This document shows positions 251-29,155 of a DNA stretch of 61,507 nt, piece by piece. Location: assembly GCA_944383355.1 (NCBI GenBank), contig CALWPF010000007.1, forward strand, positions 1 to 61,507, in the 5' to 3' direction. Numbering within the stretch: position 1 is the first letter of the stretch; each line of letters starts with the position of its first letter. Both the position numbers and the translations under genes were made by a program. This DNA is from an uncultured Clostridia bacterium (GTDB lineage: Bacteria; Bacillota; Clostridia; Christensenellales; UBA1242). Under the pieces are notes generated by a model that saw only the letters and a program-made list of their open reading frames with translations, ran no database searches and was not told the origin of the DNA.

Positions 251-541
251 CTACAGTATCAAAGTTCCAGTCATATTTAGAGTTTCCTTTGCTCCATAAT
301 GTTCTATGTGATTCTCAAACTTATTCCCTAAGTTATAAAACCTAACACTATCTGTAGTATTGTCTATCTCTGCAAGTATAGCTTTTTTTAATTTTAAAAA
401 GGTTTGATAATCTATCACACACTCATATACAGAATTTTGTACTCTGATACCATAATTTTGACACAGTTTTGATATATGGCGCAAACGTTTGGCTCCATCT
501 TTGTGAGTAATAGCAATATCATAAGAAATAACAATCATCAT
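251..541 (-). CDS. cas2: CRISPR-associated endonuclease Cas2
   Basis: This 96-residue protein has the usual Cas2 length. It opens with the hydrophobic first strand and conserved Asp of the ferredoxin-like fold (IVISYDIA) and continues with the family's GIRVQNSVYEC segment. Cas2 forms the central dimer of the Cas1-Cas2 spacer integrase. It is the last gene of the operon. Its ATG overlaps the cas1 stop codon by four bases (ATGA), which implies translational coupling, and the leader follows immediately. Confidence 0.97.
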   Translation of the reverse strand: MMIVISYDIAITHKDGAKRLRHISKLCQNYGIRVQNSVYECVIDYQTFLKLKKAILAEIDNTTDSVRFYNLGNKFENHIEHYGAKETLNMTGTLIL

Positions 542-1563
542 AATTTTGGAATAAATGCAAGGTATTCCTCTTGCTCTCCTCTAATATATTTTGCTAATAG
601 TCGTGCTTGAATATAAGGCAGTAAACCAACTTGTACCTTTTCCTTTAATATTGGGTGCATAATGCTTTCTTTTTTGCGATTTTGCCACTCCGTGAGAACA
701 ATTCGCTTTGCATTATCTGTCATAGTTACTGCACCACCAGCATCTATCTCAAAATCTTGCGATGAAAGTTGCCTCAAATTTACCAAAGACAATATATATC
801 TATCCACTAAATAACATCTAAATTCTTCCATTATGTCCAGAGCAAGAGCTGGTCTGCCTGCCCTATCTGTGTGCAAACAGCCTATGTATGGGTCTAACCC
901 AACGGTTTCTAATGCCGATTGACAATCTAATGCCAGCAAGGTATAAAAATAAGATAGTAGCGCATTTACTGCATCTAATGGAGGTCTCTTTGACCTAAAA
1001 CTAAATGTAAATTCTTTATTTAGTATCAATCTATCAAAGATACTAAAATATTGCCTAGCACAATCTCCCTCAATTCCTCTCAGCGTATCTACATCATTGC
1101 AATTTTTTGCTTTTTCTATAGAATCCTTTAAGGTCAACAGAACATTATCCACATATGCTAGCAAACTTTTATTTTCTCTACATTCCTTTGCCAAAAAGTT
1201 CGCCGTATTTTGTAATTTGGTGATGATAATACACTTTGCTAATCCTAAACAAAAATCTTTGTCGTCAAATTTCCTAAATTGCTCTCGTCTAAGGTGAACA
1301 TTGCCCTTGATTGGTCCCTCCACTCTTCCCAAAAACTTACCATTGGGTGTCAAAAAATTCAAACTTACACCTTCCTCAGCACATTTTGACATAAGCATTG
1401 GAGTACAACCCATATAATTAAAACAAACAATACTCTCAATATTGCAAAATGGCACCCTCGCAACAATTTCTTTGCCTTTTGTAGCAACGACATTTAATCC
1501 ATCTAATTTGAGATAAATATCATCTTGGAAAATATATAAAGTATTTAGTAATTTACGCATCAC
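538..1563 (-). CDS. cas1: CRISPR-associated integrase Cas1 (type I-C)
   Basis: At 341 residues this matches I-C Cas1 in length. The N-terminal half is the beta domain. The C-terminal helical domain carries the metal-binding residues: Glu in LRGIEGDCAR, His in GCLHTDRAGRP and the acidic residues of ALDIMEEF. It catalyses insertion of prespacers at the leader-repeat junction together with Cas2. It overlaps cas2 (ATGA) and cas4 by a few bases inside the minus-strand cas operon. All catalytic positions look intact, so adaptation should be possible. Confidence 0.97.
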   Translation of the reverse strand: MMRKLLNTLYIFQDDIYLKLDGLNVVATKGKEIVARVPFCNIESIVCFNYMGCTPMLMSKCAEEGVSLNFLTPNGKFLGRVEGPIKGNVHLRREQFRKFDDKDFCLGLAKCIIITKLQNTANFLAKECRENKSLLAYVDNVLLTLKDSIEKAKNCNDVDTLRGIEGDCARQYFSIFDRLILNKEFTFSFRSKRPPLDAVNALLSYFYTLLALDCQSALETVGLDPYIGCLHTDRAGRPALALDIMEEFRCYLVDRYILSLVNLRQLSSQDFEIDAGGAVTMTDNAKRIVLTEWQNRKKESIMHPILKEKVQVGLLPYIQARLLAKYIRGEQEEYLAFIPKL

Positions 1564-2146
1564 GCCTCCTATCTAGATAGGGTAAACATATCTCATACAT
1601 AGAACAAGCTCTACAACTCTTAGTAATACTTTTTGGAGGAATATTCCCACTGGCTAAATACTGTCGCATTTCATCTAAGGTATCCAGCAAGAGGTTCTCA
1701 TAAAAATCCAAATTTTTTAATTTTACTCTGCGCCTAATAGAATTGTAATAAATATACCCATCAATATTACAATCATATATTGACTGCAAACATCTCATCT
1801 GGGCATATACTTGTAATCCATCGTACACTTGCGCTTCACCATTATCTTGGGGCTTGCCCTTTTTGTATTCTACTACATTGATTCTTGGTGCATCACTATT
1901 TATAAACTCTACCAAATCTGCGATACCATACAACCCCAATGAATCATTATATACTACCACACTTCTCTTTGTTGTTATTCCTTTTCGTTTTTCCACAAAG
2001 TGTGGATCATCTACCTTTGTATGGACTATGTCTCCTAACACTGTATGTACATTTTGCAACCATTCGCCTTGGGTGTAATTTAACCACCATTGGTATTTAC
2101 AAAAACAAAAATGCTCTAAACTATTTAATGTAATATCTGTATTCAT
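1553..2146 (-). CDS. cas4: CRISPR-associated exonuclease Cas4
   Basis: This 197-residue RecB-family nuclease has the signature of an Fe-S Cas4. There is an N-terminal Cys near residue 14 (FCFCKYQWW) and a C-terminal Cys cluster (KSCRACSMYEIC). The catalytic Glu-x-Lys motif lies in VVEYKKGKPQ. Cas4 trims prespacers and selects the PAM before Cas1-Cas2 integration. It starts at the base where cas7 ends and overlaps cas1, as is typical of I-C operons. Confidence 0.96.
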   Translation of the reverse strand: MNTDITLNSLEHFCFCKYQWWLNYTQGEWLQNVHTVLGDIVHTKVDDPHFVEKRKGITTKRSVVVYNDSLGLYGIADLVEFINSDAPRINVVEYKKGKPQDNGEAQVYDGLQVYAQMRCLQSIYDCNIDGYIYYNSIRRRVKLKNLDFYENLLLDTLDEMRQYLASGNIPPKSITKSCRACSMYEICLPYLDRRRDA

Positions 2147-3024
2147 TATTGCTTGTCTACTACTTTTTGCAATTTTACACGGCTATCCCCGCAAATTGTT
2201 ATAGTATAGTCACCTAATTTTGTGGGTATCTCAATATTTTCATTCTTTTTTATAGTTACTGAATCAAACAAATCAACGCTAGGTATATCACCAGATGGCG
2301 AGTTGTGCTCCCACCAATATAATTTGACTACTCTCATACTCCCCTCTGGACGAGCTGATGACATATCATTTTCAAAAATGGTCGCAAGGGCATTTTTTAT
2401 TTTTTCTGCATCTTCCTGTGTAAAATGATTTTTCTCAGCAAAATGTGGATTAATACTACCATTTGTTCTGTACAGGGCATAACTAACACGATGCTTTGTA
2501 CCCATAGTATCGGAAGACTTATTACCAGTATCAGTTACATCGCTATTGACTGATTTTGTAATCTGAATTGATTCTATATCAACATTGTCTATAGAAAATG
2601 CTGGTTGTATAGATACAGCACCTCGAATACCTAAACTAAATCCAGTAAATGCCTTGAGAGCAAAAACCTGACCAAAAGACCTAACATCAAGCCATTTTTC
2701 ATTAATAGCATTCCTAATATTTGTCAGATCAGTAGCTGACATATTTTTGCCCGCCTTGAGATTATTATCCTTGAGAAATTTATCAAATCTTTCGGACAAA
2801 GATTGACAGTCATCTATATTATCATCTTGAGATTGTACAAATATGTTTTCCCCACTCTGTAGCAATCTATTTCTAATCTTTCTCTTTAGACATACATCAG
2901 AAACTTCGCCAAGATCCTCTATATTTGTTCGTGGTCGATTTCCGTTCAAAGGGTCTCCATTAGGATTTGCATTTTGTACCTCAAATATTAATGTAAAATC
3001 TATTTTATTTTGTAATTTAGCCAT
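2146..3024 (-). CDS. cas7: Cascade backbone protein Cas7 (Csd2 family)
   Basis: This 292-residue protein opens with the hallmark Csd2 motif NANPNGDP and has the KIRNRLL and RSFGQVFALK segments of the family. Several copies line the crRNA spacer in the I-C effector complex. The gene sits two bases downstream of cas8c and directly upstream of cas4. The length is normal and there is no sign of damage. Confidence 0.96.
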   Translation of the reverse strand: MAKLQNKIDFTLIFEVQNANPNGDPLNGNRPRTNIEDLGEVSDVCLKRKIRNRLLQSGENIFVQSQDDNIDDCQSLSERFDKFLKDNNLKAGKNMSATDLTNIRNAINEKWLDVRSFGQVFALKAFTGFSLGIRGAVSIQPAFSIDNVDIESIQITKSVNSDVTDTGNKSSDTMGTKHRVSYALYRTNGSINPHFAEKNHFTQEDAEKIKNALATIFENDMSSARPEGSMRVVKLYWWEHNSPSGDIPSVDLFDSVTIKKNENIEIPTKLGDYTITICGDSRVKLQKVVDKQ

Positions 3025-3026
3025 AA

Positions 3027-3413
3027 TTATTCATCTCCTTTTTCTTGTGGTTGTTCTATTTTTTCATTTCTGTAATTTCGCTGACCATAATAACCTAATA
3101 TAAACATATCGGTTACAGCCTTTTTGCTTTCATAATTTTCCGTCCCCATCTTGTCCAATATATCTGCAATGGACTTTTTATAATAATTAACCAAACTAAC
3201 TTTACCCTGACTGTATAATTTATCAAAGTATGGTGCGAGCAATTTATTTAGGGTAGTAAAAGTTTGCCCTGGGCGCATAGTGAATCTAGTAAATAATCTC
3301 TCTGCATTTGTATATTGATCATTACTTGTCGCCGTTTTTTCTACTCGCTCAGCCAGAGCTAGCAATCTACCAAACAAATAACTCCTATCAGTCTCATTTG
3401 TATCTAAACTCAT
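3027..3413 (-). CDS. cas11c: Internal ORF for Cas11c (small subunit) inside cas8c
   Basis: In the last fifth of cas8c an in-frame ATG (3411-3413) follows a near-perfect ribosome site, GGAGGT on the minus strand (3420-3425), with a 6-nt gap. Translation from it gives 128 residues ending at the cas8c stop, starting MSLDTNETDRSYLFGRLL. Type I-C systems are known to make the Cas11c small subunit by internal initiation in cas8c, and the size fits. The site is seen directly; expression is inferred. Confidence 0.75.
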   Translation of the reverse strand: MSLDTNETDRSYLFGRLLALAERVEKTATSNDQYTNAERLFTRFTMRPGQTFTTLNKLLAPYFDKLYSQGKVSLVNYYKKSIADILDKMGTENYESKKAVTDMFILGYYGQRNYRNEKIEQPQEKGDE

Positions 3414-5054
3414 ATATTTACCTCCGTGATTGTAGTATTTATTAAAAATTGCACAAGCAATATTAATAGCATTCCGCCAAACTTTTATAGAAAAATTACC
3501 ACTCATATCTCTAAATGACTCTGGTTTTCGCACTTTTTCAAAAGCTCGCTGTACAAAAAACTTTGGCAAATTTTTGCCCTCTACTACACAAGGAAGAATT
3601 TGTTTATAAAATTGCTTGTGCAACTTATTATCTTCCTTGCTCTCAGCATAAATTAATCTAAATAATTCGTCAAAATTAGGTGTCTTGAGTATATAACCAT
3701 TTACATCTTTACTCCACCACTGCCACTGCAGAGTCTGAAACCAATTTTGCAAATTTTTGTAATACAAAGTACTATCGATTTCATTGTAATAACATATAGA
3801 TATTCTACCTTTTGTGTCACCATCAAGCTCGATAATATTTACTCTATGCTCTTGAGTGAGTTTATCCAAAACCTTGCCTCTATTGCCATAGTATGCTATT
3901 GCTTGTATTGCCTTGTTACTATCTATCCCAAAAGAATAACTTTTTTTTGATTTATTGTCCTCTTCTTGCACAACGCCTGAATATATCAAATTTAACGCAT
4001 TTTGCTCTACTATAAACTCACAACTCCATGCTAATATAACTAGATTATCATAAGAAAATGCATTATTATTACCTATTAACCAGCTGAGCGCATACAGCGA
4101 TTTTGTCATAGCATCTTGCCCTAATGTTGACACCTCTTGAGGATTCCTGGGATTAAATCTACCGCCAAAAGTCCTTATAGATTTATCATTGGCAGATATT
4201 ATTCTTGCGCCATCTCCTTGATGGCGAATTTTCTTTGGAAAGAATGTCTGGGCATCTTGTAAAGTACCTGTAATATAATCAAGTACCGCCTCACTTGGCT
4301 GTCCCAAAATTTGTTTGTAATTATTTGTCCATTCATTTAATAAATCTTCATTCATATACAGCGCAGACTGTGTACTATCATCAACAACCACATGGAATCG
4401 TACAAAGATATCTGCTAATTTTTTGCAGTTTTTCTCATTACTTGCCTTGAGAATATTACTTTGCAATCGTTCTTGAGTATCAATTAGCGCAAACTCTTTT
4501 GTAGCGCTACTCTGAACATCTACTGCTTGCTCTGCATTTATTGCTTCTGCATTTTCTTGATCTTTTGATGACGAACCAATCAAATCTTTTAATTCGAATC
4601 GGCTCAATAACAAATGGAGCAGATCAGTATTGGACACAAAACTATATACTGCATTGATTTGTGGATACTTAGTGGAATGGACCCACTTGCCTAAAGTATC
4701 TACATATGCTTCATATTTTTTAATATGGTTTTGGAGCTGCACTGAATCATTTACCAACAAACTCCAGTCTTTTGCCATGTAATCTAATTTTTCAAACAAA
4801 GGTAATGCTGCTATGGTTTCACCCGAACGTCTCACACTCTCTGGGGTAATAGGAAAAATTGTCCGAGTTTTATCTTTTGCTATAATGCTGGCATCTATGA
4901 GCTCGCCATTTTTATCTAGTATTATATCAATACCTGCATTATTTATGGTCAATCCATCTCTTAACAAAAACTTGTCAACCGACCTAGGATCGTTATTGTC
5001 TGGGTCTTGGCTTATTTTATCATAAGTCTCATATAGTTTTAACCACAAACTCAT
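3027..5054 (-). CDS. cas8c: Cascade large subunit Cas8c (Csd1 family)
   Basis: A 675-residue Csd1/Cas8c-type protein, recognised by its position between cas5 and cas7, its length and its C-terminal segments, including FGRLLALAERVE and the family-typical MFILGYYGQRNYR near the end. Cas8c recognises the PAM and helps open target DNA in the I-C Cascade. It starts directly after the cas5 stop. The 3' end also encodes a likely internal Cas11c. Cas8 proteins diverge fast, so the call depends partly on context. Confidence 0.94.
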   Translation of the reverse strand: MSLWLKLYETYDKISQDPDNNDPRSVDKFLLRDGLTINNAGIDIILDKNGELIDASIIAKDKTRTIFPITPESVRRSGETIAALPLFEKLDYMAKDWSLLVNDSVQLQNHIKKYEAYVDTLGKWVHSTKYPQINAVYSFVSNTDLLHLLLSRFELKDLIGSSSKDQENAEAINAEQAVDVQSSATKEFALIDTQERLQSNILKASNEKNCKKLADIFVRFHVVVDDSTQSALYMNEDLLNEWTNNYKQILGQPSEAVLDYITGTLQDAQTFFPKKIRHQGDGARIISANDKSIRTFGGRFNPRNPQEVSTLGQDAMTKSLYALSWLIGNNNAFSYDNLVILAWSCEFIVEQNALNLIYSGVVQEEDNKSKKSYSFGIDSNKAIQAIAYYGNRGKVLDKLTQEHRVNIIELDGDTKGRISICYYNEIDSTLYYKNLQNWFQTLQWQWWSKDVNGYILKTPNFDELFRLIYAESKEDNKLHKQFYKQILPCVVEGKNLPKFFVQRAFEKVRKPESFRDMSGNFSIKVWRNAINIACAIFNKYYNHGGKYMSLDTNETDRSYLFGRLLALAERVEKTATSNDQYTNAERLFTRFTMRPGQTFTTLNKLLAPYFDKLYSQGKVSLVNYYKKSIADILDKMGTENYESKKAVTDMFILGYYGQRNYRNEKIEQPQEKGDE

Positions 5055-5774
5055 CTAATCACCACCTTTTTGTTGCAAAATATCTAAATCAACAAAATCT
5101 AGCCCTGTAGCGGTTGGCTGATATTCTTGGTTACTAACTACCCTAGACAATTTACACTCCTCTGGGCGCTCAAATTGTATCACGCCATTCCGCATAACTA
5201 CTTGGCTCAAATTGGCAATTAATTTATCACTCTTTGATGTAGGATAAATGAAACTATGAAACATTACTCCAAAATTAATCTCTTGTCTATCAGCATAATA
5301 TCCTGCCTCACCATCAAAATCGCATTCTTTTGCATATCCTACACATTCACGTTTCCCTAAAAATATATCACGCTTTCCACCTTTGCTAAGGTAACGCTTG
5401 GCAATATTTGAATGTTTGTATTCATCTCTATCCTGTGCCAGATCTGGTCTATCATCGTCCCATTCAAAATGTGCATCAACTATATATGCAACATCTTTGA
5501 GATAAGTATATCTATACAAATCACATTCATTTTTTTCTAACTTTCGTAATTTTATGTTTTTTGACTCTGTCTGTATAGGATTGAGTATCTTGACCCTATC
5601 TATTATCCACTTTATTGTCGGCTTCCAGTATATTGCCTCTGTTATCCCACGCAACGCCTCATAAGTGGGCACTTGATAGGTACATAGCTCTCCTCCCAAC
5701 TTGGTGATAGGGTCAGCAAACATAGCATTTTTACCCCAAACCTTGTATGTTATCTTATTGTATATCAACTGCAT
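5055..5774 (-). CDS. cas5c: Cas5c (Cas5d) pre-crRNA endoribonuclease
   Basis: A 239-residue Cas5 of the I-C kind. In this subtype Cas5 replaces Cas6 and cuts pre-crRNA. The known catalytic Tyr-Lys-His set has plausible counterparts in Tyr49 (ITEAIYWKP) and Lys120-His121 (EYKHSNIAKR). No cas6 is present, as expected. The gene overlaps the cas3 stop by about ten bases and abuts cas8c. Confidence 0.95.
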   Translation of the reverse strand: MQLIYNKITYKVWGKNAMFADPITKLGGELCTYQVPTYEALRGITEAIYWKPTIKWIIDRVKILNPIQTESKNIKLRKLEKNECDLYRYTYLKDVAYIVDAHFEWDDDRPDLAQDRDEYKHSNIAKRYLSKGGKRDIFLGKRECVGYAKECDFDGEAGYYADRQEINFGVMFHSFIYPTSKSDKLIANLSQVVMRNGVIQFERPEECKLSRVVSNQEYQPTATGLDFVDLDILQQKGGD

Positions 5775-8161
5775 AATCCCCCTTCGAATTCTAAACTCAA
5801 ACCTTCGTCAACAACCAAGCCCAAATCTGTATCATAATTGTAGGAATACCATACACCAGTATCACTCGCAAAACTAGAATAATTACTAATCTTGTTAGTA
5901 TATACATTCACCATATAACGCTCTATGTCTTTGGGCATAAAATTACCATCATTAATCAATTTTTGTATGTACTCTTGACCATTTTTATAAGGAACCAATA
6001 CTCCGACTTGGTCATTTGATATAACTTTAAAGTTTTGGGATACTGTACCAAATCTAAACTTTAGATAATTAAAATTGTTTGGCGAGAATATCTTTTCTTT
6101 GGTATTTATCAATAAATCTACAGCATTGGTTTCATTAATAATGTACTGTAATTCTTCGTTACTAACGCTACCATACAAAGCCTTGAAATATCTCTCTATA
6201 ACGTCACGAGACATCAAATCCTCTTGACCGTGACAAGTAATATTATACTTATTCACCCTTTCATAAATATCTGGCAAATATTTTAAACTCTCCAAATCAC
6301 TACTGAGTTTTACAACGTATACCTCGCCAAGCTTTTTTGCACCATTTGGATAACAAAGTTTCCCTTCACGATTACATCTACCTGCTGACTGTATAATGGA
6401 CTCCAAGCCACTCTTTGAACGAATAACGCATTCAAAGTCCAAATCTACTCCCGCCTCTATTAATTGAGTGCTAACTAATACAAATTTATCATCTTTTTGC
6501 AAATCAGCTTTTACCTGATTAATAATATCTAATCTATGTTGAGGACATAAATTAGTAGATAGGTGATAACTTTTTACATATTTTTTTAATACCAAAAATA
6601 ATTCTCTAGCTGCTTTCTTAGTGTTGACTACAAATAAAATATGTTTATTTGTCTCCAATTTTTTCAAGACAAAACTACATGCTTGCTCTTTATTCATCTC
6701 TGTAGATTGATAATCAGTGATAATTTGTGTTCTCTTTAGTACTGGATAATTTCCCTCTATTAATGGAACACTCTCTGGCAATTCCAAAATTTTTCTACGA
6801 GAATTTAGCGAATCATAAGTCGATAGTTTGTCCAACACTGGTTGTGTAGCCGTGCACAAAACTACAGTGGTATGGAGGTCTTGGGTCAAAAATTTGACAA
6901 GCAAATTAAATAACCCAATACAATTAATTGGCAAATTTTGTATTTCGTCAAATATAATTACTGAATTAGCTAAATTATGGAATCTTCTATTATTTTGAGT
7001 AGAGCCTCCATATATGCTTTCCAAAAAACTCACCATCGTGGTAAAAATTATTGGCTCATTCCACGTGCACAACAAGGAATCAAATTTACCACTATGGTAT
7101 TCGACAGATTCGTTCGCAAATTGCACCGCATTGCTGTGACTCTCCACAAGCATTTTATCTAGTCCCAAGGGATTTAGCACTTTCCTAATACTTTCTGCAT
7201 TTTGCTCTATAATGGATATATATGGCACCACATAAATAATCCTTGCCAATTTATCATATTGTAATTTCTCCAGTGCAAAACGAAAACTAGCAAATGTTTT
7301 GCCACCACCAGTCTGGACATTAAGATTAAATAATCTATCTGGGGATCGAGCTTTTTTGATACAAGTTTGATAAATTTTATTCCTGATATTATTTAATTCA
7401 TTATGCGGATAACTGGCAATCTTTTTATCCAGTTCACTTGCAATCAACTCAAACTGAGCGAATCTAGATTGTGTACTCACTTTGTGATTTTTATAATTGA
7501 TTTTCCTACCAAAATTATATGCATCAGTCCTATCGGCATCTATGAGAATACTATAAAAATATCTCAAATACATACCTAAATAAAAATTAGCATCACTCCC
7601 GTTTTGATGATTTTGCACTATACCGCTTATTAACCTGCTACACTCAGCAATAAATTGCTCGCCGTATATTATTTGCGTGAGTTTGTCACAAATTTCCTTA
7701 CCGTTTTGCATCACTTCGTCATAGGTAACTTTATATTTGGCATTTTCCAATTTACCCAACAAATTGTCTAGTTGACTCTCCTCATTATCTACCATATCTC
7801 TCAGCCCTGTATGATGACAAGAGGTGACAAAAGCACACATCTGCAAGACTAAAACAGCACAATTTATGTCTTGTTGACTGGTTGTATTAATATGTAATGC
7901 ATAATCCTTGCATTTTGATAGAATAAATATAGCACCAGCAGAAGAATGATCCACACGCTCGGTACCGTTATTTTGTAACTTAATTTGGAACGAAGAACAA
8001 GCCTTGCCTAAGTCATGAGCATAACCAAGCACTTTTGCAATACATGGAAACTTGACCAAAAATTCATCACAGATTTCACTCACATCAGTCAAATGTGCCA
8101 TGAGCGATTGGGTGGAGAGACCGTCTATTCCTATCCTGGCATTTATCTTATCTATTTGCAT
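5765..8161 (-). CDS. cas3: CRISPR-associated nuclease-helicase Cas3
   Basis: A 798-residue Cas3 with an N-terminal HD nuclease (HD in GYAHDLGK, further ligands around VDHSSAG) and a C-terminal SF2 helicase. The helicase shows Walker A QTGGGKT, a DEIQ form of the DExH box (IIFDEIQNLP) and motif VI QSAGRCNREGK. Cascade recruits it to nick and degrade target DNA processively. It is the first gene of the operon. A GGAG ribosome site precedes the ATG, and a consensus promoter lies about 30 bp upstream. Confidence 0.96.
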   Translation of the reverse strand: MQIDKINARIGIDGLSTQSLMAHLTDVSEICDEFLVKFPCIAKVLGYAHDLGKACSSFQIKLQNNGTERVDHSSAGAIFILSKCKDYALHINTTSQQDINCAVLVLQMCAFVTSCHHTGLRDMVDNEESQLDNLLGKLENAKYKVTYDEVMQNGKEICDKLTQIIYGEQFIAECSRLISGIVQNHQNGSDANFYLGMYLRYFYSILIDADRTDAYNFGRKINYKNHKVSTQSRFAQFELIASELDKKIASYPHNELNNIRNKIYQTCIKKARSPDRLFNLNVQTGGGKTFASFRFALEKLQYDKLARIIYVVPYISIIEQNAESIRKVLNPLGLDKMLVESHSNAVQFANESVEYHSGKFDSLLCTWNEPIIFTTMVSFLESIYGGSTQNNRRFHNLANSVIIFDEIQNLPINCIGLFNLLVKFLTQDLHTTVVLCTATQPVLDKLSTYDSLNSRRKILELPESVPLIEGNYPVLKRTQIITDYQSTEMNKEQACSFVLKKLETNKHILFVVNTKKAARELFLVLKKYVKSYHLSTNLCPQHRLDIINQVKADLQKDDKFVLVSTQLIEAGVDLDFECVIRSKSGLESIIQSAGRCNREGKLCYPNGAKKLGEVYVVKLSSDLESLKYLPDIYERVNKYNITCHGQEDLMSRDVIERYFKALYGSVSNEELQYIINETNAVDLLINTKEKIFSPNNFNYLKFRFGTVSQNFKVISNDQVGVLVPYKNGQEYIQKLINDGNFMPKDIERYMVNVYTNKISNYSSFASDTGVWYSYNYDTDLGLVVDEGLSLEFEGGLCS

Positions 8162-20491: not shown

Positions 20492-20520
20492 TTGAAAGTT
20501 TATAAATCCTATGATATACT
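20492..20520 (+). promoter_or_regulatory. Promoter of the glycosyltransferase cluster
   Basis: TTGAAA (20492-20497), a 17-bp spacer and TATACT (20515-20520). The same pair of hexamers and spacing occurs before dnaN. It overlaps the first in-frame ATG of the next ORF, which argues for the later start at 20574. Confidence 0.6.
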
Positions 20521-20573
20521 CTCTAATGAATGAGGCAAGTAAATATATCGGTACCAACAAAAGCGAGGGAAAT

Positions 20574-21431
20574 ATGGATAGGACAAAAAAAGATAAAGTT
20601 TCAAAATTAATTGAGCAATTGACTCAGGCGGAGACAGTAGCGCTCGGCGATGGCTTGCACCTAATAAAACTTGAGTTAGATGGTCAAGATGTAGAACAAT
20701 TAATCAACACCATGACACAAGAAGATTTTGCTCAACTACTCAATAATATTCAATTGGGTAGACAACCCAACTCAGATGAAGTATTGCAATTAAATATAAT
20801 GGATCTAACAAGTTTGCCTGGAATAGATGCATCAACTCCTATAACATTGGAACCAATGCCAAGCAAAACCACCAACAAAGCGACAAAAAAACTCAATACC
20901 ATAATGGTAAAGTTATTTGCAGATGCCAAAAAATTCGCACAAAACAAAGTGGCACTAAAAAAAGATTTAATGTTGCTTGATATAAAAATCGCATACGCAC
21001 AAAAATTGTTGGAGAAGAGCATACAGGAATACAATGGAAATAGCCTAGCATTTGCAAAGGTAATGGATAGTGAATTAAGAAGCATAGAATCAAGCAGGAA
21101 AAGTGTAAGAACCAAGATAGTGGAAATGCAAAAAATACAGCAAAATATGGACGCTTACGCAAGCAGTTGGGATAAAGAAATTTGTGCATTAAATGCCCAA
21201 CAAAATCAAACAATGGCAATCAGTGATGCAATTATTCTCCGTGAAAATTTGCCCAAATTAAATAGATGCTATGATTACACTACTTTAGATATATCAATAT
21301 ATGATACACAATATCAAGAGGCAAAAAAAGGAATTGAAAATGTTACAACTAGGTACAAAAACTTTGTATCCTCTATCAACACCACTCCTACTACAACAAC
21401 GGTAGCATCACCAATATCAACCCCAAGATAA
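20574..21431 (+). CDS. Coiled-coil protein of unknown function
   Basis: This reads as 285 residues from the ATG at 20574, which has GCGAGGGA in front and lies about 47 nt after the predicted transcript start. The N-terminal ~110 residues are polar, with a repeated pattern of short helices. Residues ~115-270 are Lys/Gln-rich long helices with heptad spacing, probably a coiled coil. A Thr/Ser/Pro tail ends the protein. There is no signal peptide or membrane segment, and I do not recognise the family. It is the first gene of a same-strand run that continues with a kinase and glycosyltransferases about 100 bp on. Confidence 0.65.
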   Translation: MDRTKKDKVSKLIEQLTQAETVALGDGLHLIKLELDGQDVEQLINTMTQEDFAQLLNNIQLGRQPNSDEVLQLNIMDLTSLPGIDASTPITLEPMPSKTTNKATKKLNTIMVKLFADAKKFAQNKVALKKDLMLLDIKIAYAQKLLEKSIQEYNGNSLAFAKVMDSELRSIESSRKSVRTKIVEMQKIQQNMDAYASSWDKEICALNAQQNQTMAISDAIILRENLPKLNRCYDYTTLDISIYDTQYQEAKKGIENVTTRYKNFVSSINTTPTTTTVASPISTPR

Positions 21432-21527
21432 TGTAGCAATACACTATCTTTTATTTTATAAATTATAATAGTTGCAATAAATATCTTAACTAACCTATAA
21501 ATGATATTAAATTATACAGGTGAGAAT

Positions 21528-22067
21528 ATGAAGAAAATAATATTTTTGGAAGGTTTACCAGGCGTGGGTAAATCGACTATAGCAAAAACGATAAAAAATA
21601 ATTACCCCGATATAAATGTAGTAGATGAGATAATTAGTGGTCAAATGCCAAATTATCAAGAGCAAAACCAAGAATGGTTTATGAAAAATGATGATAAAAA
21701 AATATCGCTGTACAATCAAGGTATTATCGTAATAGATAGAGGTCCAATCAGTACATTATCATATAATCAAACCAGATTAATAACCGATAAAAACTATTCT
21801 TTTGATATTACCAAAGTAGTCAAATGGTTTGAAAGCTACCACAGGCTACTCACCGACCCCAATACATATGTATATTACCTTACCAACAAAAAACAAAGTT
21901 ACTACATATCTATAGAACACAAAGATGACCCATATGGCTCAATAAAAAATCAGCAATTACTAGAGGATATTAGTATATATAACTCACAAAAATACGCCAC
22001 TAATCTTAAAATCATAGAATATCACAAACAAAATATGGAGGAAATCATAAATGAGATTATTAATTAA
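21528..22067 (+). CDS. P-loop kinase, deoxynucleoside/thymidylate kinase-like
   Basis: The ATG at 21528 gives 179 residues and is preceded by GGTGAGA. Walker A is GLPGVGKST at residues ~8-16, and a second conserved element IVIDRGPIST fits the DRx motif of nucleoside and dTMP kinases. A lid-like segment follows (KKQSYYISIEHKD). It should phosphorylate a small substrate with ATP; the substrate is not clear. Its stop overlaps the next gene's start by 17 bases, and the next gene's ribosome site GGAGGA lies inside it. This tight coupling implies a shared pathway with the glycosyltransferase. Confidence 0.7.
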   Translation: MKKIIFLEGLPGVGKSTIAKTIKNNYPDINVVDEIISGQMPNYQEQNQEWFMKNDDKKISLYNQGIIVIDRGPISTLSYNQTRLITDKNYSFDITKVVKWFESYHRLLTDPNTYVYYLTNKKQSYYISIEHKDDPYGSIKNQQLLEDISIYNSQKYATNLKIIEYHKQNMEEIINEIIN

Positions 22068-23304
22068 TTTGTGCGCACACGACGGCATCATTAGCGAATA
22101 TACGGGTGTAGCGACAATGGTCCAAAGATACATAAAAATGATACACAAGATTTTGGACCACTCAAATATTGAATTTCAACTCAACCTGATTACCCCACAA
22201 TACAATACGGATAGTTTTGGGTACTCGAGCTCAGTATTAGCAATGCACGATAAATTACCCAATACAAATATTATCCAATTATCAAATGGCTCAGATGGTA
22301 AGATAAATTTTGGCTCTATAGAAAATTGGCAAACGTTGACCAAAAACGCAGCAGATTATATTAATGCTATATCAAACGCCTCATATGACAAAATCATTAC
22401 AATTTACAATGATGTACCATACACATCACTTGCTAGTTTGTTATCCAATCAACCCAACCATATAAAAATATGGATACCGCACTCGACCGTCAAAATACAT
22501 GATACAGATGCATTTACAAAAAAAGATTCCCAAGAATATAACAGTCGACTAAAACTTGAATGTGATGCGATAAATTTTATCAATAATACTGACAATAATT
22601 TTGTAGCATACATTAGTACATTTATGAAAGAGCACTTGGTCAATGAATATGCATTAAACCAAACCAAATTAATTGAACTATTGAATGGAGAAATAGTAGA
22701 TGATATTACACATACTACCCCATCACCTGACGCCTTGCAACTATATCAACAGGTACAAAATTATGACCAAATTATACTATCCTTTGGCAGAGCAGAAAAA
22801 TACAAAAATCATGAGGCAACAATGCTACTAGGAAAAGCAATGAATATAAAACCTATTGTAGCAGTGCATGGTTATTACAAAGGGCAACCTATAATGAATG
22901 ATTACATTAAGTTGTCACAACAAACCAATGCAACAGTATTTATTGACCCACCATATGATTTTGTAAAAGTTTTGTTGGAACGATTTAAAAATACTCTGAT
23001 AATGTTGATTCCGTCAACCAAAGAGCCTATGGGGTTAATAGTAAACGAGGTGAGGAAACTAAACAAACCAAATATATTGATAGTCGCCAATAATATACCT
23101 GGGCTAAGAGAGCAAATAACAGATGGTGTAGACGGTGTACTAGTAGATTTAAGCAACATACAAGCGTCTGCAGAAAAAATACAAAGTTATCTAGACAGAC
23201 AAAAAATGCAACAACTTATGTTTAATGCGCAAGAAACATTGCGCACAAAATACAATTTTAATAAATGTTTTGAAAAATTTTTTGATAGGATTATGAAAAT
23301 ATGA
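22051..23304 (+). CDS. GT-B glycosyltransferase (GT4-like)
   Basis: A 417-residue retaining-type glycosyltransferase. The C-terminal Rossmann domain shows LSFGRAEKYKNHE, a nucleotide-sugar-binding EPMGLIVNE and NIPGLREQITDGVDGVLV, the usual tail of family 4. The N-terminal domain is divergent. There is no membrane segment, so it is cytoplasmic or peripheral. The ribosome site is GGAGGA inside the kinase gene, and the stop overlaps the next start (ATGA). Donor and acceptor are unknown. Confidence 0.8.
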   Translation: MRLLINLCAHDGIISEYTGVATMVQRYIKMIHKILDHSNIEFQLNLITPQYNTDSFGYSSSVLAMHDKLPNTNIIQLSNGSDGKINFGSIENWQTLTKNAADYINAISNASYDKIITIYNDVPYTSLASLLSNQPNHIKIWIPHSTVKIHDTDAFTKKDSQEYNSRLKLECDAINFINNTDNNFVAYISTFMKEHLVNEYALNQTKLIELLNGEIVDDITHTTPSPDALQLYQQVQNYDQIILSFGRAEKYKNHEATMLLGKAMNIKPIVAVHGYYKGQPIMNDYIKLSQQTNATVFIDPPYDFVKVLLERFKNTLIMLIPSTKEPMGLIVNEVRKLNKPNILIVANNIPGLREQITDGVDGVLVDLSNIQASAEKIQSYLDRQKMQQLMFNAQETLRTKYNFNKCFEKFFDRIMKI

Positions 23305-24851
23305 ATAAATGCTTACCACTAAAAGATGAATTAACACCTATTACTAACCCATATACTACATTTTATGAATGCGGCTTTAATAAACCATTTGAGCAACTGG
23401 ACTTTAGACAACAATTACAAGTAGTTAATGATCTAGTGCGCCAAAGTATGATACCTGATGCAAACGCAGACCCACAAACAGATGTGGATACCTTGATTGG
23501 CAATTGTCATACAGCATCACTCGCTACTATAGAATATTTGAATTATCTAGGTATAGGACACAACATTAGATATGTATTGTGTAGGCAGAGACCATACGAT
23601 CCTCTTGATGTAGTATCAAGGCATACTGCAGTACTGGTAGATGATGCTGAGGGCAATACATATTTTGTCGACTCTACCCCATATGTTGGGTACAAATTTG
23701 GTAAAGTGGAAAAATTGAGCGAATGTATGCCATACAAAGAGTTCTCAGTAATCCAAGGTGAGTCATTTGATTTATTACTCAAAATGAGAGAGGTAATATA
23801 CAAGTGCTCAAAAGGTTTGATGAATGCCGATTCCGCAAAAAAATACATAAAATACATTGCACCAAGTATGGCATACCCTTTTTTGAACGGTCATACCTCT
23901 CAATGTTTGTACTATCTGAGTCAATATATTACAAATCCACAAATCAAGTCTAAACTACTACAAAAATCAATAGAGCTAGACCCTTATGAGAGTCTAGCAG
24001 GTAGAGATATACAAAAATGCAAATATCGCAAAAGTTTGATTATACAACAAATCATACAATGGAGACACGAGCTTGATACGCTCAGACAATCACATTTTGA
24101 CCCACAAAAAGAATTTGAATTGGCAAGATATATATACCAAGAAAGCAAACTAATGAACGAGAATCTAGAGACTCGCATAGACCTAGGAGAGCCTCACAAT
24201 AGGATATCAAATCTCACACCTAGATTGTTTATCGAGGAAGGTGTAAATGTAGTAATGCTAAAACCTTCGGCATTCTTTACAAATACCCAAGATGAAATCG
24301 TCCAAAAAATGATACCAGACAAAAATAAAATTGTATACTCCTATACCGCAAACTTGGCCAACAAAAGAGAAATGACAAATCTAAGACCTATGTTGCTATC
24401 TCACACAGTAGGAGTTGACTTTGAGCAAGCGATGTACGGTAAATCTCAAATCTTTTTGGTGAGGGAGCCTGCACAAGATTTGTACAAAAATAAAAAAATA
24501 TTGAGAGCAAATCTTGCTAAAGAATTTCACAACAAAGATGTAATATGGTATGATGGTAGTATTATAAATTGGAATCCTGACTTGCTTAACCTAGTCCACT
24601 CAACAGATGATGCTAGCGAGGCGTGTTTGCATTTTTTGATAGCACAGCCCGAGCAACAGTTGATGACTAGATATATGTACCCTAACCCACTTTGGAGACA
24701 GGTAGAGGATATATTATATCAAAAATATGGTAGTACTCAGCCATACGGCAATCAAAGGAAATTGGAAATAAATCAAGCATTAGATGAGATTCATGGCTAT
24801 ACACAATGGGATACAAATACAGCAAGCGCCAAACAATTTATAAACAACTAA
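23301..24851 (+). CDS. Transglutaminase/NAT-fold-like fusion protein, unknown
   Basis: A 516-residue protein that I cannot name. The N-terminal ~180 residues show an ordered Cys-His-Asp triad: Cys69 in GNCHTASLA, His108 in SRHTAVLV and Asp124 in YFVDSTPYVG. The spacing and context are those of papain-like transglutaminase or arylamine N-acetyltransferase folds. The remaining ~330 residues are helical and alpha/beta with no known motif; a WYDGS segment lies near residue 415. No signal peptide is seen. It is coupled to the glycosyltransferase on its left (ATGA), and the GT-A gene follows 14 bp later. It may process or ligate a peptide or acyl group on the glycan product; that is inference. Confidence 0.6.
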   Translation: MNKCLPLKDELTPITNPYTTFYECGFNKPFEQLDFRQQLQVVNDLVRQSMIPDANADPQTDVDTLIGNCHTASLATIEYLNYLGIGHNIRYVLCRQRPYDPLDVVSRHTAVLVDDAEGNTYFVDSTPYVGYKFGKVEKLSECMPYKEFSVIQGESFDLLLKMREVIYKCSKGLMNADSAKKYIKYIAPSMAYPFLNGHTSQCLYYLSQYITNPQIKSKLLQKSIELDPYESLAGRDIQKCKYRKSLIIQQIIQWRHELDTLRQSHFDPQKEFELARYIYQESKLMNENLETRIDLGEPHNRISNLTPRLFIEEGVNVVMLKPSAFFTNTQDEIVQKMIPDKNKIVYSYTANLANKREMTNLRPMLLSHTVGVDFEQAMYGKSQIFLVREPAQDLYKNKKILRANLAKEFHNKDVIWYDGSIINWNPDLLNLVHSTDDASEACLHFLIAQPEQQLMTRYMYPNPLWRQVEDILYQKYGSTQPYGNQRKLEINQALDEIHGYTQWDTNTASAKQFINN

Positions 24852-24865
24852 TGATGGAGAACTAT

Positions 24866-25900
24866 ATGCAAACAAAAGATAACGAAGAGATTAAATTTTC
24901 CATAATTGTACCTTATCACAATACAAAAGAAGAATATTTTGGCAAATGCTTGGATAGCCTAGCAAACCAAGATTACTCAAACTATGAGGTAATCATCATA
25001 AACGATAGCACCTCTAATGAATATGATAATATTTTGGAACCATACAAAAAATTAAATAATTTTGTAATCAAGCGGGAATCAGCACAAGGAGTATCAGCAT
25101 CTCGTAATCAAGGTGTCCAACTATCGACAGGAGATTATATTTTATTTGTAGATGCTGATGACTGGCTAATGCCAAACACTTGCAAAATATTAGCTCAAAT
25201 TATAGTCAATAATAATTTACCTCAAGTAATAATTGGAAGATGTTTTTTACATAGAGATGACAACATACAGGAAAGTGAATGTAACCAAGCTAGTGAGATA
25301 GTACCAGACAAACAACCATTGATTGATTCAATTTTTTTGAACTATAACAATAAATATACCTATGTAGATACCCCTTGGGCAAAAGCATTTAATAAAAAAT
25401 TTTTACAAGATAACAGTATCAAATTCAAACAAACTCTATCAAATGGAGAAGATGGGGTGTTTAATTATGAAGCTTATACAAAAGCTAACTCCATATATTT
25501 TACTAGAGAAATAATTTATAATTATAGATTTAATCCATACTCTGTATGCGCATCATATACTGACGACTTGGATAAAAAATTTGCTACATTCTATGATGAG
25601 TACAAAAAAGCAATTGATACTCTTGCTACACAAAAAGATAGAGACTTAAACAACCTCAATTATTTAGCAATAAGGAACCTATGTAGATGTCTTCGTAAAC
25701 TTTTAAATAAATGTCCAAATTACAAGAGTTTTAAGGCTAGATTAAAATCAATCTTGGATATGCCAGAATATAGTACTCCACTACGAGATATTAAATTGAG
25801 TGATTTAAACTGTGGCAAGAGATATGTCACAGCATTATGTAGACTAAAAATATATTACCCATTGTATAGAATGTCAAAAAAAGGTTTCAAGATTAGATAA
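24866..25900 (+). CDS. GT-A glycosyltransferase (family 2)
   Basis: This reads as 344 residues from the ATG at 24866, which has GGAGAA in front; longer in-frame starts overlap the previous gene and lack a ribosome site. Family 2 hallmarks are FSIIVPYHN near the start, YEVIIINDSTS, GVSASRNQGV and the metal-binding DADDW motif. A helical C-terminal part follows, with no clear membrane anchor. It is the last gene of the cluster, with a strong terminator right after. It probably adds sugars to a surface or secreted product together with the GT-B enzyme. Confidence 0.88.
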   Translation: MQTKDNEEIKFSIIVPYHNTKEEYFGKCLDSLANQDYSNYEVIIINDSTSNEYDNILEPYKKLNNFVIKRESAQGVSASRNQGVQLSTGDYILFVDADDWLMPNTCKILAQIIVNNNLPQVIIGRCFLHRDDNIQESECNQASEIVPDKQPLIDSIFLNYNNKYTYVDTPWAKAFNKKFLQDNSIKFKQTLSNGEDGVFNYEAYTKANSIYFTREIIYNYRFNPYSVCASYTDDLDKKFATFYDEYKKAIDTLATQKDRDLNNLNYLAIRNLCRCLRKLLNKCPNYKSFKARLKSILDMPEYSTPLRDIKLSDLNCGKRYVTALCRLKIYYPLYRMSKKGFKIR

Positions 25901-25902
25901 AA

Positions 25903-25933
25903 CAGGAGAGAATTGGGTCTCTCCTATTTTTTA
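25903..25933 (+). terminator. Terminator of the glycosyltransferase cluster
   Basis: An eight-base stem AGGAGAGA/TCTCTCCT with a six-base loop followed by ATTTTTT, three bases after the last stop codon. Apart from this and the promoter at 26176-26205, the gap to 26235 holds nothing I recognise. Confidence 0.9.
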
Positions 25934-26234: not shown

Positions 26235-28309
26235 ATGAAAAACATCAAAAAAATAGGGATAATAGGCGGTCTGTTTGCCTGCGTGATGTTGGTATGTTTT
26301 TTGTGTTAGTCCAATTTACAAAACAATATGTTAATGCTGGTTGGATTAATGGCGGGTATTATACCAACGCCCCTGCTTATGTAGCGGGTGCACAAAATGA
26401 CGCAATAGATAGGATTAACAATACTATAAATTCAAGCAAAGTTACTCCTCTCTTTACCGCTAATGGTATAAATTATAGTGTAGTAGCAGACCTACTTAAC
26501 ATATTAAACGATGGTGCAGTGGTAGGTAACAAGACATTTCCAACTGCTGCGGAAGAAGTAACATATTTTACAGCAAAAGATTTTGGGAAATATGATAACC
26601 AAACCAATGCCCAACTACTCCTCAAATTGCTAGACAACACTGGTAACGCAAATTATGGTGCAAGCACGGTTGCATCTACATATTGGCAAGTAGTTTATCG
26701 TACTACAACTACAGATCAAGATATCTTGACTCTATATATGGTCAATGGATATACTGGTAGTTGGTTTAATGATGTAGACGGAGATTATTCTGCAAGTACA
26801 GTTCAAACTTTTGTAAAAAATACCTACGATCAACTTACTCAATCATTCAATCAACTAGATGAATATGTCGTAGCGCCAAAGGACCTGCCAATGGAATGGC
26901 AAAGTAGTGCATATCAGACCTCTCAAAATAGTGTGGGCAATTATTTTGCTGGTGATCAAGCTAGCTCAGCTGGTGCAAGTGGTAATGGCGGCGGATATTC
27001 CATAAACAATGGAATGGATGGGCAAAATGCACGACATAGTAGCTGGGTGGAAGAAGCTGAAGATGCTAATACGCCCTATTCAGACAAACTATGGTTACCT
27101 AGTGCTTTTGAGGTGTTGAGTACAGGATATGGGACAGGTTATATACCTGGAACAGATAGATATTATGATGGTGTTGAGTCAGTATCAGTTATTAGTGATA
27201 CCGCAGATAAAAATACAGGAATGGAAAGCGTAACAGATGATGGGCGTACTGGATTGTGGGAACTAAACGCATATGATAGAGCGACTGGAGCATGGGCATG
27301 GCTGAGGTCGTGTGACTCAGATGGTCGGAGAGCAAATGTAATATTTAATAATGGTAGGACTCATGCATATCAACACAATGATGGCTGTATGGTACGAGCA
27401 GCAATACATATTGATCTAGAAAAACTCAAAACATATACACTTAATTTTGATTCCAATGGCTCTGGAGAACCAAATAAAACATTAACAAAAACTTGTGGTG
27501 AAACTCTCATACTACCTGATAATACAGCGTTTACAAGATATGGATACGAACTTATAGGTTGGGCAACAACGAGCACTGCAACTACCCCTACATATGCTTG
27601 TGGAGCAGAATACAACTCTGATGACTTTACCACTCTGTACGCAGTATGGGAGCAGAATATATTCCAAATAAATGCTTCATCAAATATAACGCATGTGAGT
27701 TGTGTGACTGGTAGTGGCGTATACGAAAAGGGAGCCAATGTAACACTCTCAGCAAATGATGTGGATAAAAGATTTCGTTTTGTGCAATGGCAGAGTGATG
27801 GAGTACCTGTTTCCACCCAAAGCACTTACTCTTTTACCGCATCTGTTGACATCAATCTAGTAGCGATTTATCAATTCAATTTATCTTCTATGGATATCAA
27901 TTATGCGACACAACTTTTTTGGATAGCGGACAGAGTCCAAGATGGTATTACTTTTGATGGTGTTATATTTAACTTGGTTGCGGATATTGACATTACTAAT
28001 GTAACAGACCAAGTATGGCAAACTATAGGTGACAGTACACACAACTTTGCAGGAATTGTTAATGGTAATGGATATAATATACGCTACTCTGCCACAGAGA
28101 GCTCAATAGCAAATGGAGGTGTACCGACTCATGGTGACTATATAACACTGTTTGCAAACAATATAACTGGCGATTTATACGACCTATATATTACTGATGA
28201 TGTAGCCGCTGGCGTAAATATTACTTTTGGAATGTCTACGCTGTACCCATATGACAATAGCCTAGAGCTCACAGATGATGAGAATAAAATAGTATTACCA
28301 CCAAGATAA
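26235..28309 (+). CDS. Secreted InlB-repeat surface protein, frameshifted in a T tract
   Basis: The ATG at 26235 has a good ribosome site (GAGGGAG) and encodes a signal peptide (MKNIKKIGIIGGLFACVMLV). That frame stops at 26309 after 24 codons. The rest is open in another frame from 26294 for 671 codons. The frames join at six Ts (26297-26302); a seventh T would give one continuous ORF. The mature part has a DUF6273-like region (~residues 200-385, ending in a WLRSC..VRAAIHI pattern), one InlB B-repeat (FDSNGSGEP to LYAVW), an Ig-like segment and an unrecognised C-terminus. It may be phase-variable, a pseudogene or a sequencing error. Confidence 0.75.
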
Positions 28310-28675: not shown

Positions 28676-29155
28676 ATGAATAATAAAGAGTATGAATATA
28701 GTTTTGAGGTGAAAGATTTGACCCCTTTTATACAATATTGCAAAGATAATGATTATCAGTTTGTCGAAAAACACGAGCAAGAGCGCACCATATACAGAGA
28801 CAAAGACCGAACCATGATGGCTAGACTCACACTAAACATAAAAAATGGTGTGACAACTAGACAATTGGACTTTAAAGAGGATCAATTAGTTGAGGGACAG
28901 ATATTGGGTGAACGCAGAGAATCACTAGCACTGGATTACGATAATAATGATGCCGTCTTGTCAATATTGGACTTTTTGGGGTTTAGCCAAGACAATACCC
29001 TAGTACGCACTAGGTATGTTTATCAAAAAGGCAATGTCAAATTTGAATTAGATGAATATACAGTGCCTCGCACCACATGTGTTGTGGGAATAGAGGGAGA
29101 AAAAAGCGCAGTAGATGCAGTATATAGCGAAGTCAAAGATTTTGCAAAACTATAG
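28676..29155 (+). CDS. CYTH-domain-like protein
   Basis: A 159-residue protein with a good ribosome site (AGAGGTG). The alternating charged strands, an N-terminal EYEYSFEV in place of the ExExK motif, a VRTRYVYQKGNVKFELDEY segment and the GIEGE near the end match the CYTH/triphosphate-tunnel fold. Family members hydrolyse inorganic or thiamine triphosphate, or are adenylate cyclases; which applies here is not clear. The N-terminal motif is imperfect. Stand-alone gene. Confidence 0.65.
   Translation: MNNKEYEYSFEVKDLTPFIQYCKDNDYQFVEKHEQERTIYRDKDRTMMARLTLNIKNGVTTRQLDFKEDQLVEGQILGERRESLALDYDNNDAVLSILDFLGFSQDNTLVRTRYVYQKGNVKFELDEYTVPRTTCVVGIEGEKSAVDAVYSEVKDFAKL

Follow-up and report, generated by a model that had tools for sequence, protein, structure and literature searches.

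A conserved set of kinase, glycosyltransferase, transglutaminase-like–NDK-like fusion and CYTH-like genes in uncultured Clostridia, with a possible role in small-molecule glycosylation

Introduction

The question addressed here is what a compact group of genes for a kinase, glycosyltransferases and a protein with a Cys-His-Asp triad might make, and which genes belong to it. The group lies in contig CALWPF010000007.1 of an uncultured Clostridia bacterium, from which the full stretch of 61,507 nt, here called the window, was analysed. A preliminary description had presented the group as one five-gene system with a single promoter and terminator, consisting of a coiled-coil protein, the kinase, a GT-B enzyme, the triad protein and a GT-A enzyme. 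We find all five of these open reading frames (ORFs), and a conserved unit with a different membership: four genes, for the kinase, a family 4 glycosyltransferase (GT4), a 516-residue fusion protein with a predicted nucleoside diphosphate kinase (NDK) fold, and a CYTH-like protein that had been omitted.

The four-gene set and its linkage

The conserved genes, together with the optional family 2 glycosyltransferase (GT2), are located in the window as follows.

21528..22067, + strand: P-loop nucleotide-type kinase, 179 aa (the ORF opens at 21501; the ribosome-binding site and homologues favour 21528)
22051..23304, + strand: GT4-family (GT-B) glycosyltransferase, 417 aa (Glycos_transf_1, E 2.4e-12)
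23301..24851, + strand: 516-aa predicted transglutaminase/NAT-like–TPR-like–NDK-like fusion (from AlphaFold, structure comparison and residue conservation)
24851..25900, + strand: GT2-family (GT-A) glycosyltransferase, optional (Glycos_transf_2, E 3.6e-28; the ORF opens at 24806, likely start 24851)
28676..29155, + strand: CYTH/triphosphate-tunnel-like protein by profile similarity, 159 aa, fourth conserved member (profile match in its own genome, E 2.1e-61)

The survey of homologues covered 297 genomes from the same family as the window, 396 order genomes and 319 phylum genomes. Nine loci have readable neighbourhoods, these being the window, L011, L012, L013, L014, L015, L018, L020 and L030; a tenth carrier, L016, is a contig-edge fragment and is outside the nine-locus counts. 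The kinase and GT4 genes accompany the fusion gene in all nine loci. The same is true of the CYTH-like gene (about 160 codons), which is found in 10/10 carrier genomes; in the window it lies 2.8 kb past the end previously given to the cluster. GT2 is near the module in four of the nine loci (the window, L011, L013 and L018). The coiled-coil gene has no homologue at any other carrier locus, and for that reason a five-gene unit that includes it was rejected.

The genes are also closely coupled. In the window, the kinase and GT4 genes overlap by 17 nt and the GT4 and fusion genes by 4 nt, in agreement with the overlapping starts and stops reported before, and GT2 may begin in a TAATG that overlaps the stop of the fusion gene. 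Elsewhere it is the CYTH-like gene that is coupled, with a 4-nt overlap with the fusion gene in L014, L018 and L020 and a 0-nt gap to GT4 in L030. The order and strand of the genes differ between loci (in L012 the fusion gene has the opposite orientation, and in L030 it is first), and so the linkage is not merely an inherited order. Identity between the module proteins of different genera is about 31-59%; conservation of the set at this divergence, with a shuffled order, rules out chance. The four-gene set and its linkage are therefore firm. The proposal of one functional unit holds, and the neighbourhood comparison that had been suggested as a check gives a conserved gene set, though a shuffled order; it is the membership that had to be changed.

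It is worth adding that the CYTH-like gene is missing from a sister genome without the module, and that it is found in about 42/297 family genomes overall, where in 20 neighbourhoods examined it is otherwise alone among unrelated genes. The idea that it is exclusive to the module was rejected, since stand-alone copies with unrelated neighbours occur in about 35 of the 297.

The fusion protein

Sequence-profile searches found no fit for the fusion protein in Pfam, NCBIfam, PHROGs or PDB, and no PADLOC model fits it. Its domains were recognised using AlphaFold prediction and structure comparison (Foldseek; Z scores). The pTM is 0.86 for the full-length model and 0.88 for a model of residues 1-292, and the predicted layout is a transglutaminase/NAT-like domain at about 1-160 (C69-H108-D124), TPR-like helices at about 176-285, and an NDK-like domain at about 311-451 (H433). 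Residue numbers are those of the window copy.

For the C-terminal domain, the predicted NDK fold has strong support. It matches with a Z score of 11.7 and a root mean square deviation of 2.6 Å over 114 aligned of 129 target residues, with a Foldseek probability of 1.00, and all 50 entries among the matches listed are NDKs. This fold had been overlooked in the preliminary description, which proposed structure prediction and a Foldseek search of the 516-aa protein. Residues K321, R402, N430 and H433, equivalent to NDK Lys12, Arg88, Asn115 and His118, are present in 8/8 copies, that is, all those that cover them; the NDK-type site is the invariant site of the fusion family. The residue register has support from the genome's own NDK, onto whose NLIHGSD a profile comparison aligns NLVHSTD. 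Given that this canonical NDK is encoded elsewhere in the genome, the NDK-like copy in the fusion is not a housekeeping enzyme.

The N-terminal domain is modelled with a pLDDT of 90.6, and has moderate support as a transglutaminase-like/NAT-like predicted fold. The structure matches are LapG (Z 9.1), menin (8.9), TglA, NAT and GdmF (all 8.8), with transglutaminase 3 also among them in the Z 8-9 range; these scores are middling, yet all come from one superfamily. The papain/transglutaminase-type arrangement of Cys69, His108 and Asp124 described earlier can thus be placed in a predicted fold of the expected type. However, over the nine copies the triad is complete in only six: L020 and L030 have Ser instead of Cys69, and L014 has Arg instead of His108, while Asp124 is kept in 9/9. 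The triad as conserved core was accordingly rejected; homologues lacking it, which the preliminary description had itself named as the result that would tell against its proposal, make up three of the nine. Because the gene set is conserved while these three lack the full triad, the unit survives and the cysteine-triad account is weakened.

The kinase, the glycosyltransferases and the CYTH-like protein

The kinase has the Walker A sequence GLPGVGKST and a DR motif, and E17, K24, D79 and R80 are invariant in six homologues. It matches a phage thymidylate kinase in PHROG over its full length (E 1.2e-6). In Pfam and NCBIfam it stays below the cut-offs, with sub-cutoff matches to AAA_18, AAA_33 and Thymidylate_kin (PF02223, 18.3 bits against a cut-off of 27).

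GT4 is recognised by PF00534 (E 2.4e-12), has invariant R247, K252 and E325-x7-E333, and is weakly similar to PglA/BshA-type enzymes. All three earlier assignments, as a kinase, as a GT-B enzyme and as a fold of the acyl/peptide-transfer type, are supported. The acceptor domain of GT4 has distant relatives only, at about 24% identity (plasmid glycosyltransferases of Agrobacterium/Rhizobium, and an Embleya plasmid gene). The Agrobacterium match spans half the protein, with relatives in a quorum-sensing-linked glycosyltransferase/methyltransferase cluster. Read by eye, the Embleya relative (L094, 3000-11829) stands amid QueD/QueE/FolE-like, PIG-L, WbqC, SUMF1 and reverse-transcriptase-like ORFs, possibly a 7-deazapurine-type cluster. 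Both neighbourhoods were set aside as guides to function, the relatives being too distant.

The fourth member qualifies as CYTH-like by profile similarity. Its profile alignment with a PF01928 protein runs over the full length (132 columns, P 0.003), and it aligns locally with solved structures of CYTH/TTM proteins (2dc4, E 2e-4; Saci_0718, E 0.011); there is no match in Pfam itself. The ExE start, paired Arg, DxY and late Glu are kept. We note that stand-alone CYTH-like genes in L056 and L065 lie, by eye, beside inorganic-pyrophosphatase-like genes, a context that suggests a triphosphate or polyphosphate role for this family.

Additional genes at other carrier loci

Some carriers have further genes next to the module. 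L014 (7668-9664) and L015 (2523-4510) have a cassette of thymidylate-synthase-like, QueC-like (with a Cys-rich zinc-type motif) and Nudix genes. The thymidylate-synthase homologue MilA works in the biosynthesis of the nucleoside antibiotic mildiomycin (PMC5175136). In L012 (12924-18562) a tightly coupled run of a GHMP kinase/methyltransferase fusion, a HisC-type aminotransferase, a U32-like protein, a P-loop/M23 fusion and a GNAT protein leads into the kinase and GT4 genes. These neighbours point to nucleotide chemistry (L014, L015) or aminosugar chemistry (L012). A dTDP-glucose 4,6-dehydratase gene, counted with the neighbours that indicate such chemistry, adjoins the module in L020; an AbiU2-like gene is near it in L012, and type III CRISPR genes (Csm6 CARF, Cas10, RAMP) lie close downstream of it in L018 (8908-14170).

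A proposed function

Three members of phosphate-transfer or triphosphate type, together with GT4, the translational coupling and the additional neighbours, lead us to propose that the set, in gut Clostridia with small genomes, is an accessory module for making or processing a glycosylated small molecule, activated by phosphate and with a nucleotide-like or aminosugar-like acceptor. This is a possibility that we favour tentatively. The thymidylate-kinase-like P-loop enzyme would phosphorylate the acceptor, and the NDK-like domain of the fusion would relay phosphate via phospho-His433. GT4 would then add a sugar, and GT2, where present, a second one. The transglutaminase/NAT-like domain, where its triad is intact, may form or cleave an acyl or amide bond on the same molecule, and otherwise may serve as a scaffold. 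Finally, the CYTH-like protein may bind or hydrolyse a triphosphate intermediate or by-product.

A more specific version is unlikely: a new class of mobile system, small and either biosynthetic or signalling, where the NDK–transglutaminase-like fusion would pass phosphate from phosphohistidine to a non-standard acceptor glycosylated by GT4 and the triphosphate-tunnel partner would process the product, a previously unseen nucleotide-type antibiotic, signal or cofactor of gut Clostridia. We found no paper on this gene combination in the open-licence literature.

Several points weigh against the proposal. PF00334 remains unmatched in five members of the fusion family at E values up to 10. With the register taken from sequence, no equivalent of NDK Arg105 is evident, WxDG replacing TIRGD, and the Glu129 position is His444; HGSD reads HSTD, with Ser434 for Gly. 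The triad, as described above, is incomplete in three copies. The CYTH-like protein lacks the lysine of ExExK, which is a hallmark of the CYTH/TTM family (PMC8233210); it has EYEYS in the alignment, with both Glu kept. Its gene, as noted, can also stand alone. Nucleotide-type additional genes are found at only two of the nine loci and aminosugar-type ones at one, and the carrier loci have no dedicated exporter gene in common. The assignments of substrate and product, like the order of the steps and the biological role, are ones that we infer.

Other features of the window, and surface glycosylation

The remaining features of the locus are listed here.

20492..20520, + strand: sigma-70-like promoter-like site (TTGAAA-17-TATACT, 10/12, extended -10), preceding the coiled-coil gene
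20574..21431, + strand: coiled-coil protein, 285 aa, non-conserved upstream neighbour (start re-set to 20574 by ribosome-binding site and homologues)
25904..25925, + strand: intrinsic-terminator-like hairpin (8 pairs, T-rich tail), ending the kinase-GT4-fusion-GT2 unit
26236..28309, + strand: surface protein with InlB/Listeria-type repeats (family by eye), lying between the GT2 and CYTH-like genes but no member of the module

A promoter-like site and a terminator-like hairpin were found at the two ends where the promoter and terminator had been placed before. Promoter-like matches in this AT-rich DNA are barely more frequent than in shuffles (65 vs 51 ± 7.5), and the one before the coiled-coil gene, taken singly, lacks significance; for terminator-like sites in the region the figures are 7 vs 5.0 ± 2.5. 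The starts first given to the kinase and coiled-coil ORFs were over-extended; 21528 and 20574 are the more likely positions. The coiled-coil protein has a sub-threshold match to LemA only. Foreign base composition was considered as a sign and set aside as uninformative, the GC content of the module (0.29-0.37) being within the spread of the window genes. Type I-C-like CRISPR-Cas genes (Cas1, Csd1/Cas8c and Cas3 by Pfam) occupy 538-8161 on the - strand, 12 kb upstream of the module. In the InlB-type gene, an ORF with a signal peptide (26236) meets a stop, and the 671-aa body ORF (26294) is in another frame; as read from the sequence, this may be a frameshift, a sequencing error or a decayed gene.

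The presence of this surface protein bears on a somewhat unlikely alternative, the accessory glycosylation of a cell-surface polymer or protein. Here a short glycan would be assembled by the glycosyltransferases, with the sugar activated or phosphorylated by the kinase and the NDK-like domain, and the transglutaminase-like domain would attach it to a protein or peptide. The InlB-type gene of the window is in keeping with this, but it is missing from the same place in sister locus L011; and of the two glycosyltransferases of the window locus, GT2 is absent from five of nine loci. The weak similarity of GT4 to PglA/BshA-type enzymes, the dTDP-glucose dehydratase in L020 and the M23/P-loop protein within the L012 run would all fit such a role. 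Against this, the module has no flippase, polymerase or priming transferase as a constant companion, and the CYTH-like and NDK-like proteins would be out of place in a usual glycan pathway. The statement in the preliminary description that this is not an ordinary capsule operon was correct, the unit having no flippase, polymerase or sugar-nucleotide synthesis gene.

Distribution and horizontal transfer

The module is rare and almost confined to one family. The fusion is found in 7/297 family genomes (two more weak matches were discounted), in two further metagenome-assembled genomes, and in diverged form in a single genome from another family; this last, L030, is the one carrier known to be outside the window's family. 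Among the order and phylum genomes, no other family yielded a copy. For the eight carriers possessing RpoB, identity in the module is not correlated with identity in RpoB (Spearman -0.19, p 0.34). Genomes G000 and G178 are 77% identical in RpoB and 38% in the fusion protein, and G178 and G024, at 62% in RpoB, are yet grouped together in the module tree. Because its divergence does not track RpoB, we conclude that the module moves horizontally. In G024 and G178 the thymidylate-synthase-like/QueC-like/Nudix cassette has identities of 80/68/66%, and it too has moved horizontally, with the module or separately. In G024 the fusion gene is broken into two ORFs, showing that the module can be lost.

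A phage or plasmid origin was rejected: viral contigs, plasmids and phage collections gave no match to the fusion, and viral contigs none to GT4. By eye, serine-recombinase-like and transposase-like genes adjoin the module in L030 (13513-18670).

This patchy, horizontal and strongly diverged distribution would suit an anti-phage or other conflict system, whose enzymes would alter nucleotides or produce a nucleotide-type toxin or signal upon infection, and so would the broken copy in G024, the serine recombinase seen by eye in L030, and the nearby defence genes (type I-C Cas genes at 12 kb in the window, type III CRISPR genes in L018, an AbiU2-like gene in L012). We consider it distinctly improbable. 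No sensor or effector is recognisable, other loci adjoin ribosomal-protein or housekeeping genes, and, as just mentioned, the fusion is unmatched in the viral, phage and plasmid collections and GT4 in viral contigs. PADLOC gives no convincing match for GT4, the fusion or GT2, and matches only the P-loop of the kinase; a known defence system was rejected on this lack of fit.

Salvage or house-cleaning of unusual nucleotides, with the kinase and NDK-like domain raising triphosphates, the CYTH-like protein removing them and the glycosyltransferase diverting them, is very doubtful: the kinase resembles thymidylate kinase, and in several genomes a lone CYTH-like gene has an inorganic-pyrophosphatase-like, Nudix-like or PF01928 CYTH gene as its neighbour, but GT4 and the transglutaminase-like domain would be superfluous, and presence in 2-3% of genomes is too restricted.

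The glycosylated small molecule remains the tentative preference. A unit that is kept together despite changing order, strand and host lineage offers a handle on an unknown metabolite or on conflict chemistry, in uncultured gut bacteria with small genomes.

Comparison with known systems

The module differs from a capsule or exopolysaccharide operon in that its ORFs include no flippase, polymerase or sugar-nucleotide synthesis gene, with a dTDP-glucose dehydratase in L020 only. It resembles nucleoside-antibiotic clusters such as that of mildiomycin (MilA, PMC5175136) in the thymidylate-synthase-like, QueC-like and Nudix cassette beside it at two of nine loci; however, no further pathway gene is recognised, and the cassette is missing from seven loci, including the window.

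GT4 shares with BshA, MshA and PglA the C-terminal nucleotide-sugar domain and the E-x7-E motif, and differs in its acceptor domain, with relatives at only about 24%. The kinase resembles thymidylate-kinase-like P-loop kinases in Walker A, DR motif, size and the full-length phage match, but is under the Pfam and NCBIfam cut-offs. Likeness to the CYTH/TTM family (PF01928; SaTTM, PMC8233210) consists of the end-to-end profile alignment and the ExE, paired Arg, DxY and late Glu; ExExS in place of ExExK, the missing Pfam match and the merely local matches to solved structures are differences.

The fusion resembles LapG, TglA, NAT and GdmF in the fold predicted for residues 1-160, where Cys, His and Asp are at the expected elements, and menin in having a transglutaminase-like fold followed by TPR-like helices. 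It is unlike them in giving no sequence-profile match, in the replacement of Cys or His in three of nine copies, and in the fused NDK. The NDK-like domain in turn differs from true NDK, which is encoded separately in the genome, in being fused to other domains and unseen by PF00334, with Ser for the Gly after His, no evident Arg105, and His at the Glu129 position. What it shares is the fold, with the Lys, one Arg, the Asn and the phospho-acceptor His in register in 8/8 copies, and the invariant His433 provides an entry point for biochemistry. This transglutaminase-like–TPR–NDK fusion matches no family library searched, and is found in different genera with an unchanged set of three partners.

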